Below are positions 4,716 to 10,589 of a stretch of 64,000 nucleotides of DNA, piece by piece. The notes beneath the pieces are model-generated. The model was not told the DNA's origin. It saw only the letters and a list, made by a program, of their open reading frames with translations, and did no database searches. The position numbers and the translations under genes are program-made. How positions within the stretch are numbered: position 1 is the first letter of the stretch; every line of letters starts with the position of its first letter. Source of the stretch: Paracoccus seriniphilus (GTDB lineage: Bacteria; Pseudomonadota; Alphaproteobacteria; Rhodobacterales; Rhodobacteraceae); NCBI RefSeq assembly GCF_028553745.1, contig NZ_CP067129.1, positions 2,090,501-2,154,500 of the forward strand. The letters are read 5' to 3'.

Positions 4716-5549
4716 ATGCGCATACTCATTACCAATGACGACGGAATCAACGCGCCGGGCCTTCAGGTTCTGGAAGAGATCGCCGCCGAACTGGCCGGCC
4801 CGGGCGGCGAGGTCTGGACCGTCGCACCCGCCTTTGAACAATCGGGCGTTGCCCATTGCATCAGCTATTCGCATCCCACCATGGTGGCACGGCTTGCCGA
4901 GCGCCGCTTTGCCGCCGAGGGCAGCCCGGCCGATTGCGTTCTCGCCGCGATCTCGGACATCATGGTTGATGCCCGCCCCGACCTGGTGCTCTCTGGCGTG
5001 AACCGTGGCAACAACGCCGGTGAAAACGTCATGTATTCCGGCACGGTGGGCGGCGCGATGGAGGCCGCCTTGCAGGGCCTGCCCGCAATTGCCCTGTCGC
5101 AATATCTTGGCCCACGCACCGCGGATCTTCAGGATCCGTTTGAAACCGCCCGCCAACATGGCGCCGGGGTCGTCCGGCGGCTTCTGGATTATGGCGACTG
5201 GGAATCCGATGCGGATTTCCGGCTGTTCTACAATGTGAATTTCCCGCCGGTTCCGGCGTCGGGCGTTCAGGGCATCCGCGTCACCCCCCAGGGACGGCGG
5301 CGCGAAACCAGCTTTGGCGTCGTGCCCTATACCGCACCGAACGGGCGTCGCTTCATGTGGGTGTCTGGCGGATCGCAGCAGACGCCGGCCGCAGAGGGCA
5401 GTGATGTCTCTGCCAATCTGGCCGGTTTCGTATCCGTGACGCCGATGCGCGCAGATCTGACCTGCCACAACTCGCTCGACGGATTGGCCAAAGCGCTGAA
5501 TGGCGATATGCTTGCTTGCAGCCAGCCAACGAATAGCGACGCCGGATGA
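4716..5549 (+). CDS. surE: 5'/3'-nucleotidase SurE
   Basis: A 277-residue SurE: a metal-dependent phosphatase acting on nucleoside monophosphates and, in some species, short polyphosphate. The metal site is seen as the N-terminal [13 protein letters not shown] (D8, D9), the [10 protein letters not shown] loop and [20 protein letters not shown]. The length is normal for the family. It begins an operon with pcm and an NlpD-like lipoprotein, the same order as surE-pcm-nlpD in Escherichia coli; its stop overlaps the pcm start by four bases (ATGA). Confidence 0.95.
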
Positions 5550-6208
5550 GCGAACAGGACGACAACGAGGATAGTGCAGCCGAGCGCAAGATGCGTTTTC
5601 TGTTTCAGCTTCGCTCTCGTGGCGTGACCGATCCACGTGTTCTGGATGCCATGGAGCGCATAGATCGCGGATTGTTCGTGCGTGGCCAGTTTTCCGACCG
5701 CGCCTATGAGGATACGCCGCTTCCCATCCCCTGCGGGCAAACCATCAGCCAGCCCTCGGTGGTCGGGTTGATGACACAGGCCCTGAATGTCGGACCACGC
5801 GACACGGTTCTGGAGGTCGGCACCGGCTCTGGCTATCAGGCCACGGTCCTGTCGGGCTTGTGCCGGCGCGTCTATACCGTGGACCGCCACAGGCGTCTGG
5901 TCCAGGAAGCCGAGGTGATCTTTCGCGAATTGGGCCTGTCCAATATCACCGCACAGGTCGCCGATGGCTCGCGCGGGTTGCCCGATCAGGCGCCATTCGA
6001 TCGGATTCTGGTGACAGCCGCGGCCGAGGATCCGCCCGGCTCGCTGTTGGCACAACTGAAGATCGGCGGTATCATGGTGGTGCCGGTCGGGCAGTCGGAC
6101 GCCGTGCAGACGCTGATCCGCGTTACCCGAACCGAAACGGGATTCGACTATGACGAATTGCGCCAGGTGCGTTTCGTCCCGCTGGTCGAGGGGTTGGGAC
6201 AGACATGA
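5546..6208 (+). CDS. pcm: protein-L-isoaspartate O-methyltransferase
   Basis: A 220-residue SAM-dependent methyltransferase that methylates isoaspartyl residues in aged proteins so that they can be repaired. The substrate-site block [17 protein letters not shown] and the SAM motif [15 protein letters not shown] are both intact, which distinguishes it from the divergent paralogue at 9936-10589. The start overlaps the surE stop. In E. coli this order is followed by rpoS; here the third gene is the NlpD-like lipoprotein and no rpoS follows, as expected for Alphaproteobacteria. Confidence 0.95.
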
Positions 6209-6244: not shown

Positions 6245-7390
6245 ATGAGCAGGACTTCCTTGCAGATCATGGCGGCAGGCGTGACCCTTGCCGCGCTGGC
6301 GTCATGCGGACCAACGACCGGCTTTGATCCGGATCTGCGCGGCTGGGTGACCGGTAATCTGAACACTTCCGAGGCCGCCGCGAAGGCCGTGCCGCGGCCC
6401 GCCGCGGATTCCCGCGGCATCATCACCTTCCCGAACTATCAGGTGGTGGTCGCACGCAAGGGGGACACCCCCGCGATGATCGCCGCCCGACTGGGACTCG
6501 GCGCATCCGAATTGGCCAAATATAACGCCCTGAGCCCCGACACGCCGCTGGAGGCCGGGGCAACACTGGTCCTGCCAAGAACCGTGGCGGCCGGGACCGC
6601 CGTCTCGGCAGGAACAACGAGCACCACCGGGCTTGTCAGCGACCCCTTTGCGGGCGAACCCGCAAAGCAGACCGAGGCCGAGAAATCCGCGGCACCGCAA
6701 AGCAAGCCGACCACGGTTCAGCCCAAACAGCACGTCGTCGTCGCCGGGGAAACGGCATGGTCGATCTCGCGCAAATACGGCGTCAGCGTGCAGGATCTGG
6801 CCAGTTGGAACGGCCTGCCGGATTCCATGGATGTGCGAATCGGCCAGCGCCTGATGATCCCCGTTGCCGGGCAGGAACCCAAGGATCCCACCGCAATCAC
6901 CACCGCACCGGGCAGTGGCAGCCCCACGCCACGCCCCCCTTCGGCTGCCGAACCGCTGCCCAAGGAAGAGACCGCCCCGGCTGCAGCCCCCGGCCCCAAG
7001 CCTCCTGCAACCGATCTGGGCTCGACCCGCACGGCCGCATCATCGGACGGACGTTTCAAGATGCCGGTCAGCGGGTCCATCATTCGCGTCTATGAGAAAG
7101 GCAAGAATGACGGGATCGATATCGCGGCAGCGGCGGGCGCACCGGTCAAGGCTGCCGGCAGCGGCACCGTTGCGGCAATCACCCGCGACACGGCGGGCGT
7201 TCCCATTGTTGTCGTGCGCCACGATGGCGGCTTGATGACCGTTTATACGGGACTTGAAACGCTTGACGTGGCCAAGGGAGAATCTGTTTCCTCGGGACAG
7301 GACATCGGAGAAGCCGGCAAGACGGGCGTCGTTCATTTCGAAGTGCGCCGCGGCTTTGAAAGTGTTGATCCCGAAGACTATCTGAACTGA
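6245..7390 (+). CDS. NlpD-like lipoprotein: two LysM domains and a degenerate M23 domain
   Basis: A 381-residue lipoprotein with lipobox LASC (C21), LysM domains at about residues 60-115 and 160-207, a proline-rich linker, and a C-terminal LytM/M23 domain from about residue 270. The M23 zinc site is incomplete: the first His is absent in KNDGIDIAAAAG, and the HxH motif reads VVHFEV with only its second His kept. The same losses occur in E. coli NlpD, so it should activate a peptidoglycan amidase instead of cutting peptidoglycan itself. A strong hairpin follows the stop. The role is inferred from architecture and from the surE-pcm-nlpD order. Confidence 0.88.
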   Translation: MSRTSLQIMAAGVTLAALASCGPTTGFDPDLRGWVTGNLNTSEAAAKAVPRPAADSRGIITFPNYQVVVARKGDTPAMIAARLGLGASELAKYNALSPDTPLEAGATLVLPRTVAAGTAVSAGTTSTTGLVSDPFAGEPAKQTEAEKSAAPQSKPTTVQPKQHVVVAGETAWSISRKYGVSVQDLASWNGLPDSMDVRIGQRLMIPVAGQEPKDPTAITTAPGSGSPTPRPPSAAEPLPKEETAPAAAPGPKPPATDLGSTRTAASSDGRFKMPVSGSIIRVYEKGKNDGIDIAAAAGAPVKAAGSGTVAAITRDTAGVPIVVVRHDGGLMTVYTGLETLDVAKGESVSSGQDIGEAGKTGVVHFEVRRGFESVDPEDYLN

Positions 7391-7506: not shown

Positions 7507-8520
7507 TCAGAGCCGATCAAGCTGATCGTCGATTGCCGCTGCGACTTCGCGCCGGATCACCGCGCGCAGATTTTGCGAAAAGCGCTGCCCCAGATCCCCA
7601 TGCATCTCTTCGCGGATCATTTCACGCAGGATCTCGCGAATCCGCTCGTCCTCCTTCGCAGAAACTCCCATGGGAGAGCGATCTGACGGCACATCTGCAC
7701 GACTTTCAGGCAGGTCCTGGCAGTCAACTTCCCGGGGGCTGATCTGCCCTGTCAGACTCGCTTTCCATTCAAACGCCTCGGCAAAGCTTGCATCGTCGTC
7801 TTCAGGTGCAACCTGCACGGTCTGGTGCGTCAGGTGAACGACATTCTCTGCCGCTTCTGCCTCGCCGGGCCCGTCATCCGGGCGGGCAAAGTCGCGCCAA
7901 CGGATCGAGACGTCCTGCACATCGCGAACCACGCGGCGGGTCTGGTCCAACTGCAGCGGACGCTTGCGTTCCGACGGATCCTGCGGCGCACGGTTCTCAG
8001 GCCGCTCAACCTCGCGCTGCGCATCGTGTTGCGGCGACCTGATGATGGGTTCCACGCGGCATCCTGCTTCCGAGGCGGCCGCAGCCTGTGCGGACGTTGC
8101 CCCGTGTCGCAAGACGGGCTCGACCCTGTGTCGCATGGCAACCGACTGGTCGATCGGCCTCAACCAGGGCGGTTCCCTTCGCATTTCCTGCCGGGAAGTC
8201 GAATCCGGATCTGACGGGGCGATATCGTCGGCCGGTTTCCCTTGGCGCCGAGGCTGTGGTGGTGAAATGGTCCAGTCAGAGGCATTGCGGGCCCCGGCCA
8301 GCCGACGTGCCAGACCTGCCTCACCGCCATAGCGTTGCGCCAGATCTTCGGCAGGGTCGGTTTCCGTTTCCTGATGACTGTCTGCTGCGGCCTGCCTCTC
8401 CCAGCGGGGAGAACGACCGGCGGCTTCATCTGCGGCTATCAGCTTTCGTATCGTGCCAAGCACATCGCTGATATCTTCGGTCAGGCGGGCGGCATCCTGC
8501 GATCCATGTGAATCTTTCAT
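7507..8520 (-). CDS. PopZ-like polar organizer candidate (hypothetical protein)
   Basis: A 337-residue soluble protein with no confident catalytic domain. Residues 15-31 (EDISDVLGTIRKLIAAD) form a short amphipathic helix like the PopZ N-terminus (EEILASIRRIISED). Residues about 35-285 are low-complexity, rich in Arg, Asp, Glu, Pro and Gln, with a repeated RVEPVLR/RVEPIIR motif. The last 48 residues are predicted helical (REILREMIREEMHGDL, then RAVIRREVAAAIDDQL), resembling the PopZ oligomerisation helices. It is the third gene after a PIMT-like methyltransferase and tolC; in Caulobacter and Rhizobiales, popZ (DUF2497) lies beside tolC. I saw the architecture and synteny; homology to PopZ is an inference and could be convergent. 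Confidence 0.5.
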   Translation of the reverse strand: MKDSHGSQDAARLTEDISDVLGTIRKLIAADEAAGRSPRWERQAAADSHQETETDPAEDLAQRYGGEAGLARRLAGARNASDWTISPPQPRRQGKPADDIAPSDPDSTSRQEMRREPPWLRPIDQSVAMRHRVEPVLRHGATSAQAAAASEAGCRVEPIIRSPQHDAQREVERPENRAPQDPSERKRPLQLDQTRRVVRDVQDVSIRWRDFARPDDGPGEAEAAENVVHLTHQTVQVAPEDDDASFAEAFEWKASLTGQISPREVDCQDLPESRADVPSDRSPMGVSAKEDERIREILREMIREEMHGDLGQRFSQNLRAVIRREVAAAIDDQLDRL

Positions 8521-8544: not shown

Positions 8545-9939
8545 TCAGTTGCCCTTGCCGATTGCACGCAGAACGCGGTCAAGGCTCTCGCCCTGCTTGC
8601 TGGTGCGCGGCGCGTTGCGCACGGCATTGTAGTATTGCGATGGGTCATAGGTCGGAATCCCCAGTTTCAGGTGTTCTACCGTCAACAAACCCATAGCAGC
8701 CAATAGTTGATAATGTGCTAACTGCAGATTGGCTTCCGCCGTGATCTTGTCGGCGCGGGCCTCCAGCAGCGACTGTTCGGCATCCAGCACGTCCAGAGTC
8801 GTGCGTGCGCCCAGTGAGGCCTCTTCACGCACACCGTCATAGGCCTGCTGTGCAGCCGATATCTGCTGATCGATCGCGCCGATCTGTGCGCGTGCAACCG
8901 AGATATTCGACCATGCGGTGCCCACCTGCTGGCTGACCTGACGCGCAACATTCAGCAGCGATGCACGGGCCTGATCGCGCTGTGCCATCGCCTTGCGATG
9001 CGCGGCAGAGAGACTGCCGCCCGAGTAAATCGTCTGGCTCAGGCTCAACCCGACCGAACCATCGATGGGCTGATCATAGCCGCCGTTCTCGGGGTTGTTC
9101 ATGCCGACGATTTCCGCGCTCAGCGACCCCGACAATGACGGATTGCGTTCCGCCGCTGCTGCCGCCACGGCCAGTTCGGCCGCAGCCGCGGTCCGTTGTG
9201 CCTGAAGGATCGAGGGATGATTCTTCTGAGCGATGGCGCGCGCTGCATCCAGATTCTTTGGCAGTTTGGGCAAGGGCGGCGGTGCCGAAAGCGTACCGGC
9301 CTTCTTGCCCACTGCAGCCAGATAGGTTTCGCGCGCAACCTCCAGGTCACCCTGCGCAGCCGCCAGAGAGGCCTGCCCCTCGGCCAACTGGGCATCGGCC
9401 AGCGCAACATCGGTCACGGTGATCTCGCCAACCTCGAAACGGTCAAGCGCTGCCTGACGCTCCTGGCTGACCAGTTTAACCGAATTCTGTTGCAGCGCGA
9501 CCTGCTCGGTCGCTTCGCGGACCCCGAAAAAGGCCTGCGCGGCGGTCAGCAACACATCCTGTTCGATGGCGACAAGTGCCTGCCGCGTCGCCAGGACCTG
9601 CTCTTTCGCACCGTCGATGGCCAGTTGCGAACGCCCCCAGTCATACAGGACCATTTCCGCGCTGAGACCCAGCGACGTGGTGCGCAGAGTGGTTGCGCCT
9701 TCCTTACGCGAGACCGTGTGGCCGGCGATCCACTGCACCACCGGCCGCAATTGTGCCACGGCGCTGGCGACATCTTCATCCGCCGCGCGCAGGACAGCAC
9801 GATTCTGTTCGATCAGCGCAGAGTTGCGATAGGCCGCGACCAGAGTATCGGCCAACGTCTCGGCACTGGCCTGCCCGATCGTCACGACCGATATCCCGGC
9901 CGCGATCACGACAGCGCGGATCTTGGATAATTTGCTCAC
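8545..9939 (-). CDS. tolC: TolC family outer membrane efflux/secretion channel
   Basis: A 464-residue outer membrane protein with a signal peptide ending at QASA (about residue 26) and two TolC repeats, each with long coiled-coil helices (for example around residues 140-215 and 340-420) and the short beta elements typical of the family, such as [14 protein letters not shown] near residue 290. It should serve type I secretion or multidrug efflux. Its ATG overlaps the upstream methyltransferase stop (ATGA). No inner membrane ABC or RND partner is encoded nearby, so it probably serves systems located elsewhere. Confidence 0.92.
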
Positions 9940-10589
9940 AGGCAGAATCCTCTTTCGCGCTCGAAACCTTGCAGCAAGGGAGCATGCGCATGGAATGCGT
10001 AGCGCCAGTTGACGCGTCCGTTCAGGCGGTGTCCGATACGGACAACGCCCAGTGACCCCTCCACGAACAGGGCAGCGATCTTGCCACCCTCTTTCAATTG
10101 GTCAATGATCGCAGCGGGAACCTCTTCGACGCCGCCCTCGATGAGAATGGCATCATAGGGGCCCTGCTTGGCATTGCCTTCGGCAAGGGCTCCGGCAAGA
10201 ACTGCGACATTATAGACGCCGGCATCGGCCAGTCGCGTCTGTGCCTCGGCGGCCATGTCCTCGTCATCCTCAATGGCGACGACGGCTTCCGCCATGCGCG
10301 CGATCACCGCGGCCGAATAGCCAAGGCCACAAGCGATATCCAGGACTAGGTGATCCGGCTCGATATCCAGCGCATCCAGCATCTTGGCCAGAGTGCGCGC
10401 CTCGAGCATGACACGCTTGTCGCTCAAGGGCAGATTTTCTCCGGAATAGGCGACGGCACGACGGGATGCGGGGACAAAATCCTCGCGCGGAATCGTCAGC
10501 ATAGCTTCGATAATCGGAAACTTTGTTACATCGTTCGGACGAACCTGAGTATCCACCATCATGGTGCGGCGCGCGGCGAAATCGGTCAT
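9936..10589 (-). CDS. divergent protein-L-isoaspartate O-methyltransferase-like protein
   Basis: A 217-residue Rossmann methyltransferase of the PCMT family with a recognisable SAM motif I ([17 protein letters not shown]). The isoaspartyl substrate loop is changed: the canonical GQTISQP-type stretch is replaced by [12 protein letters not shown], so true isoaspartate repair is doubtful. It leads an operon with tolC (four-base overlap) and the PopZ-like gene. The same PIMT-like/TolC pairing is widespread in Alphaproteobacteria. A canonical pcm is also in this window at 5546-6208, supporting a different role for this copy. Confidence 0.85.

Follow-up and report, generated by a model that had tools for sequence, protein, structure and literature searches.

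A candidate diverged PopZ next to tolC in Rhodobacterales and its eroded copy in Paracoccus seriniphilus

Which gene, if any, takes the place of popZ in Rhodobacterales? According to the available sections of the literature, a conspicuous PopZ is missing from many Rhodobacterales (PMC5182065), and R. sphaeroides has none (PMC6414705). The DNA studied here, called the window, is a stretch of 64,000 nucleotides of Paracoccus seriniphilus (contig NZ_CP067129.1, positions 2,090,501 to 2,154,500). Its preliminary description, which in agreement with these papers knew of no established PopZ in the order, proposed that the gene behind tolC could be a diverged PopZ counterpart missed by ordinary searches. 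The analysis supported this proposal and extended it to the whole order, with a function suggested by analogy with PopZ.

The gene is an intact open reading frame (ORF) of 337 aa starting with ATG; it lies at the coordinates first described (7507..8520), on the minus strand. Its place as third gene was also confirmed: on the minus strand, a PIMT-like methyltransferase gene (9936..10589; PCMT 6e-32) is followed by tolC (8545..9939) and, after a gap of 24 bp, by the gene under study. The tolC gene, which served as the syntenic anchor, encodes a type I secretion outer membrane channel (TIGR01844 250.9 bits, cut-off 225; OEP 4.5e-56). A convergent LysM/M23 peptidase gene was annotated downstream on the plus strand (6245..7390; Pfam scan); it adjoins the gene in many congeners and in 0/79 of the loci from named records described below. 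The 337-aa protein showed no Pfam match above the cut-off and no NCBIfam match, and no curated family names it. Judged by its sequence, it is a member of a family that we call X (match to the X profile A1, E 1.7e-6). A search for a separate PopZ elsewhere in the window genome gave no DUF2497 (PF10691) match at E ≤ 10. The valS gene of this genome is located about 415 kb from the X gene, and inspection by eye of the region upstream of valS showed no second PopZ-like ORF. The PIMT-like protein encoded at 9936-10589 scores under the NCBIfam PIMT cut-offs, and a second PIMT-family methyltransferase gene is located at 5546-6208, about 4 kb from this copy.

AlphaFold2 reproduced the three-part layout that had been claimed for the window protein. 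It predicted an N-terminal helix at residues 7–33 (pLDDT about 90), a middle of mostly low confidence with some helices (e.g., residues 187–211, pLDDT 73–81), and helices at residues 288–307 and 309–336 (pLDDT 92–97), which form a helical end of about 49 residues. The motif ISDVLGTIRKLIAAD in the first helix (residues 17–31; 8428..8472, minus strand), of which DVLGTIRKLIAAD is residues 19–31, is the putative counterpart of the client-binding helix of PopZ, according to hhalign and AlphaFold2. By the same methods, the C-terminal helix pair (residues 288–336; 7513..7659, minus strand) is the putative counterpart of the PopZ oligomerisation domain. The AlphaFold2 model of one X protein from a named record has three C-terminal helices, and the PopZ C-terminus was published as three helices (available part of PMC9926476).

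The predicted disordered linker of the window protein comprises 247 aa (residues 41–287; 7660..8400, minus strand), mostly with pLDDT below 60, and contains 12.1% Arg, 7.3% Gln, 18.6% Asp + Glu, and 9.7% Pro. It had been described as dominated by Arg and Gln rather than mainly by Pro, Glu, and Asp; the direction of this shift is right, but its extent was overstated because acidic residues are still the larger class. The net charge per residue is −0.05 in the window linker, and the median is −0.07 in its genus, −0.20 in PopZ (n = 29), and −0.22 in X (n = 20). Median Pro content is 19.9% in PopZ and 7.3% in X, and the linker is longer in X (medians of 296 and 272 aa in two sets) than in PopZ (125 aa). 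X linkers are thus similar to PopZ linkers in charge density with less Pro, and the window linker is barely acidic.

Profile A1 was built from the 20 X loci with the best DUF2497 scores (L031-L050), in all of which tolC lies upstream of X. The consensus of these 20 is MSDPVTNxEIEDVLSSIRRLVSE... linker ...ETLRELVxEIVREELQGALGERITRNVRKLVRREIHRAL. X could be recognised in 149/149 genomes of the order: 143 by A1 at E ≤ 0.01, with some weak matches, and six directly after tolC (G059, G136, G140, G150, G153, and G182). The gene after tolC has both X signatures in G136 and G140, and by the models the C-terminal signature alone in G150, G153, and G182, with the N-terminal motif visible in G150. In G059 the N-terminal signature follows tolC, and the locus ends before the C-terminus. 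A positional check of the eight weakest or unlisted A1 matches showed an X signature after tolC in 8/8; these eight exclude the window genome and G046 (checked by the tolC route), and the other A1 matches rest on the profile score.

Among the genera with a named X record are Leisingera, Phaeobacter, Sulfitobacter, Roseovarius, Tateyamaria, Shimia, and Thalassovita. The tolC gene lies upstream of X in 76 of the 79 named loci; among the other three, L113 and L153 start less than 300 bases from X, and L157 has a PIMT-like gene directly before X. A PIMT-like match is present in 73/79. One record titled Nocardioides marinus (JAHVJD010000002.1, L081) is mislabelled or contaminated, given that its X gene is 100% identical to that of G183, a genome of the window's family. 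A search of the plasmid collection with a named X protein yielded nothing at E ≤ 1e-3.

The window protein was also used as a query against 41 genomes. It was found in 22, and each of these is one of the 25 genomes of its own genus; the matches lie mainly at the two ends. Conservation among congeners is concentrated there, and short blocks in the middle are common to one subclade; the preliminary description had named a lack of conservation of the two helical segments as a refutation. As an independent route, the gene following tolC was read in 60 of 61 congeneric genomes with a located tolC, the window's own being excluded; the HMMs used for this reading include the 17 window-clade sequences of alignment A3. 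An N- and/or C-terminal X signature was present in 59/60, and at E < 0.01 the C-terminal signature was detected in 57/60 and the N-terminal signature in 54/60. The C-terminal signature alone is missing in two loci, L240, where the gene is cut short by the end of the contig, and L279, where the ORF ends without it; four of the 60 congeners have no recognisable N-terminal helix. In L263 (G013), the C-terminal end is out of frame with the N-terminal motif, which points to a frameshift or a sequencing error. L268 (G325) is the sole congener locus in which no X signature follows tolC; by eye, the ORF that comes next resembles a VOC-type protein, and loss, rearrangement, or misassembly are possible readings.

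Comparison of X with PopZ by hhalign gave 97.6% at the N-terminus and 93.5% at the C-terminus (ungapped, 39 columns), and 0/200 column shuffles reached either value. Whole alignments gave 92.9% for the C-terminus, and the reversed-profile controls reached a probability of 3.6% and 0.4%. Profile similarity to PopZ at both ends, which had been proposed as a check, was therefore found for the family. The PopZ alignment (A2) consists of 12 of 30 PopZ loci chosen, like A1, by best scores; the PopZ HMM tests used 29 of the 30, L063 being dropped since it is cut by a contig end. None of the 342 shuffled controls scored as high as any of the 97 X proteins on either PopZ model. These 97 comprise 20 + 77 proteins with at least one identical pair, and two of the 79 named loci without a full X protein were left out.

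Genome-wide searches were run in both directions. When 142 genomes sampled from the class were scanned, PF10691 exceeded its gathering cut-off in 113, all outside the window's family; within the order it did so in 0/149 genomes (best 26.4 bits vs. 27). The distribution of X is complementary to that of recognisable PopZ. At E ≤ 1, PF10691 matched in 118/149 order genomes, and the best match was the X gene in 112 of these 118; the best match lies elsewhere in G101, G052, and G091, and the X coordinates are unlisted in G059, G088, and G136. Control genomes gave such a match in 3/14, one of which is Caulobacter. The reverse search covered 140 genomes outside the window's family; the X profile matched at E ≤ 1 in 35, and in 30 of these 35 the match fell on the gene marked by PF10691 as PopZ, always via the N-terminal part. 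The match fell off that gene in G235, G306, G035, G302, and G264; in G264 the X and PF10691 matches lie near the ends of two separate contigs and may represent the two parts of a single popZ that was split. With 105/140 genomes outside the family giving no match, the reverse search is specific and not sensitive. Against 177,635 PDB sequences, the X profile had a single match at E ≤ 1, PopZ 6xry (E 0.071; profile positions 1–32). This entry is an NMR fragment of Caulobacter PopZ (residues 1–133) without the C-terminal oligomerisation domain, comparable with X at the N-terminal end only.

The N-terminal helix has the same spacing in X and PopZ, with the consensus MEEILASIRRIISED in X and IEDVLSSIRRLVSED in PopZ. 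In Caulobacter PopZ, triple mutation of E12, R19, and S22 (numbering of 6xry) inactivates the client sites, according to the available part of PMC5182065. The residues at these positions are D/R/S in X, D/R/A in the window's genus, and D/K/A in the window protein. An LxLT element follows the helix in 23/29 PopZ and 90/97 X proteins. The Trp of the PopZ C-terminus is invariant (12/12 in A2), but it is not conserved in X. The tolC gene is located upstream in 27/30 PopZ loci and in 42/42 loci found by X or DUF2497 similarity. Of the synteny expected with popZ, tolC adjacency was thus borne out, and the valS linkage was seen in two order genomes: valS lies downstream of popZ in 24/30 loci of the class, no valS match was detected in the 79 named X loci with flanks of up to 8 kb, and the order tolC-X-valS is kept in G150 and G181. 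A PIMT-like match was also observed directly before popZ in locus L057.

The window protein is joined to PopZ through its family. On the X models, it scored 31.4 bits at the C-terminus and 8.3 bits at the N-terminus (maxima of 342 shuffled controls, 4.3 and 4.4). On the PopZ models, the protein alone scored 2.6 bits (N) and 0.7 bits (C), with shuffled maxima of 4.7 and 3.7. Because this signal is within noise, we argue relatedness at the level of family X; the claimed similarity to PopZ holds through the family and is weak for the single protein. The window clade aligned with X at 98.96% (C-terminus) and 97.7% (N-terminus) by hhalign, and with PopZ at 95.5% (N-terminus) and 65.6% (C-terminus), with 0/200 column shuffles reaching either PopZ value. 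The underlying alignment A3 contains the window locus and 16 of 21 congener loci, and since L012-L015 and L021 were left out for want of a readable N-terminal helix, these figures speak for helix-bearing members. On the PopZ C-model, the clade had a median of 1.8 bits, which is not separated from the shuffled controls.

Two order genomes of the window's family, G181 (L306) and G150 (L298), have the PIMT-like gene, tolC, X, and valS in a row. The valS match has E 1e-96 in G181 and E 2.4e-14 in G150, where only the first 53 valS residues lie within the locus. The X protein of G181 has 175 residues and begins MPAEDEAMTEGKTGDERSMSEILASIRKIVTEEE. Its segment RSMSEILASIRKIVTEEE scored 31.8 bits on the PopZ N-model and 13.8 bits on the X N-model, and its C-terminus scored 30.4 bits on the X C-model; 0/200 shuffles reached either the PopZ-N or the X-C score. 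On the PopZ C-model, its C-terminus scored 1.7 bits, a value reached by 2/200 shuffles. The element VLVLTDAMRV of G181 is intermediate between VLELTDVV of PopZ and LVLTPALRV of X. The G150 protein scored 16.7 bits on PopZ-N, 7.3 on X-N, 29.2 on X-C, and 12.1 on PopZ-C. A Pfam scan of both proteins gave no match above the cut-off. These genes look as popZ changing into X would, with the helix and the gene order kept longest.

Taken at family level, the evidence indicates that X almost certainly descends from popZ. Convergence, in which a disordered protein unrelated to PopZ came to sit in the slot beside tolC and acquired similar short end helices by itself, is very improbable. Only about 60 residues can be compared, and short helices are weak evidence; the 65.6% of the window-clade C-terminus and the G181 C-terminus, which does not rise above its shuffles on the PopZ C-model, would fit such an origin. 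Against it, both ends match in the right order beside the same neighbour gene, the genome-wide searches point to each other, and G181 and G150 join the order tolC-X-valS with sequences between PopZ and X. These bridging loci halved the probability we assign to convergence and slightly raised our confidence in a PopZ-like X. The position directly after tolC in nearly all loci examined could also suggest that X assists TolC-dependent secretion as an accessory factor. PopZ occupies the same position and has a known function, and neither AlphaFold2 model (the window protein and the named X protein) has a confident fold beyond the helices; we consider a secretion role extremely improbable.

It is a different matter whether X still works as PopZ does. 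X may have come from popZ and been repurposed, so that, at least in the genus of the window, it still self-assembles and has lost the role of a polar hub that binds ParB. The near-neutral, Arg-rich linker of the window protein, its Ala and Lys at the S22 and R19 positions, and the five genomes with a lost or degenerate helix, four of them with a basic extension, are consistent with such a change, as is the lack of a normal interaction between Caulobacter PopZ and the ZitP and ParB1 of R. sphaeroides (PMC5182065 and PMC9298525, available in part). The helix is near-invariant in the rest of X, however, positions 12, 19, and 22 included, and the behaviour of oriC1 in R. sphaeroides suggests transient attachment to a polar factor (available part of PMC6315104). 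Repurposing is unlikely in our view. We consider it likely that X is the diverged PopZ of Rhodobacterales, derived from the same tolC-linked gene and most likely acting as PopZ does.

By analogy with PopZ, X is probably a pole-organising hub. As described for PopZ in the available part of PMC9926476, the C-terminal helices would self-associate into trimers or larger assemblies. The long disordered linker would act as a spacer between these helices and maintain the fluidity of the assembly. Clients, for example ParB attached to the chromosome origin, would be captured by the N-terminal helix. The resulting polar hub would then anchor the origin. Self-assembly, client binding, and polar localisation of X are what we infer from this likeness.

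The window copy represents an eroded branch of X, with a near-neutral linker and a weakened client helix, and its function is less certain than that of the family. Because the drift in the genus of the window affects both the linker charge and the client helix, a change of clients or of material state is probable there. The N-terminal helix is lost or degenerate in G001, G005, G016, G018, and G153. In G001, G005, G016, and G153 (L237, L234, L233, and L293), an N-terminal extension rich in Lys, Arg, Ala, and Pro, with 19–26 Lys + Arg in the first 100 residues, precedes a degenerate internal helix (IRxMID). The protein of G094 (L300) starts like those with the basic extension, and that of G018 (L220) has no visible helix. 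The basic extension resembles a linker-histone tail, and direct DNA binding is possible from this composition. From the loss of most of the repulsive negative linker charge, the decaying client helix, and the basic extensions, we speculate that a PopZ-type hub is being rebuilt in this genus, from ParB-mediated DNA contact to direct DNA binding, although we regard this as quite unlikely. Paracoccus cells are often coccoid; if the hub is being rebuilt, coccoid bacteria may have little use for fixed poles.

In a search of the open-access literature on PopZ/DUF2497, which takes in neither subscription journals nor preprints, no description of X was found in the available parts of PMC5182065, PMC8116508, PMC6414705, PMC9512792, PMC6275241, PMC9298525, PMC7174722, PMC9926476, and PMC6315104. 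The PopZ survey in PMC9512792 collected homologues by BLAST with the C-terminal region, according to its available sections, and such a survey is expected to miss X. In R. sphaeroides, oriC1/ParB1 takes a subpolar position and is tightly polar during a transient phase, which was ascribed to a polar factor (PMC6315104), ParB1 showed no binding to Caulobacter PopZ in a two-hybrid assay (PMC9298525), and ZitP was largely diffuse unless it carried Q27R (PMC5182065), as far as the available parts of these papers report. The behaviour of ZitP and ParB1 would be expected if both had co-diverged with X, and the non-binding of ParB1 equally fits loss of the mechanism. R. sphaeroides is not among the 79 named loci, and we expect an X gene there. 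The presence of X at the popZ position in 149/149 order genomes makes it a concrete candidate for the polar factor of this species. If this is true, X would also provide a partner for its ZitP and ParB1. Linker charge and length set the mobility of PopZ condensates (PMC9512792, available in part), and X would then provide a large set of naturally occurring PopZ-type condensate proteins in which these two linker properties vary. The G181 and G150 loci will be useful for dating the divergence of PopZ and X. The reported absence of PopZ from the order thereby turns into a testable candidate, which is of interest to cell-polarity specialists.

DivIVA and HubP are polar anchors with a role like that proposed for X, tethering the chromosome origin at the pole. 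Neither was listed when the window protein was scanned against Pfam and NCBIfam. Unlike PopZ, X stays under the DUF2497 cut-off, its linker is longer and poorer in Pro, and in the window genome valS is unlinked. Like PopZ, X has the three-part layout, related C-terminal helices, and tolC upstream.
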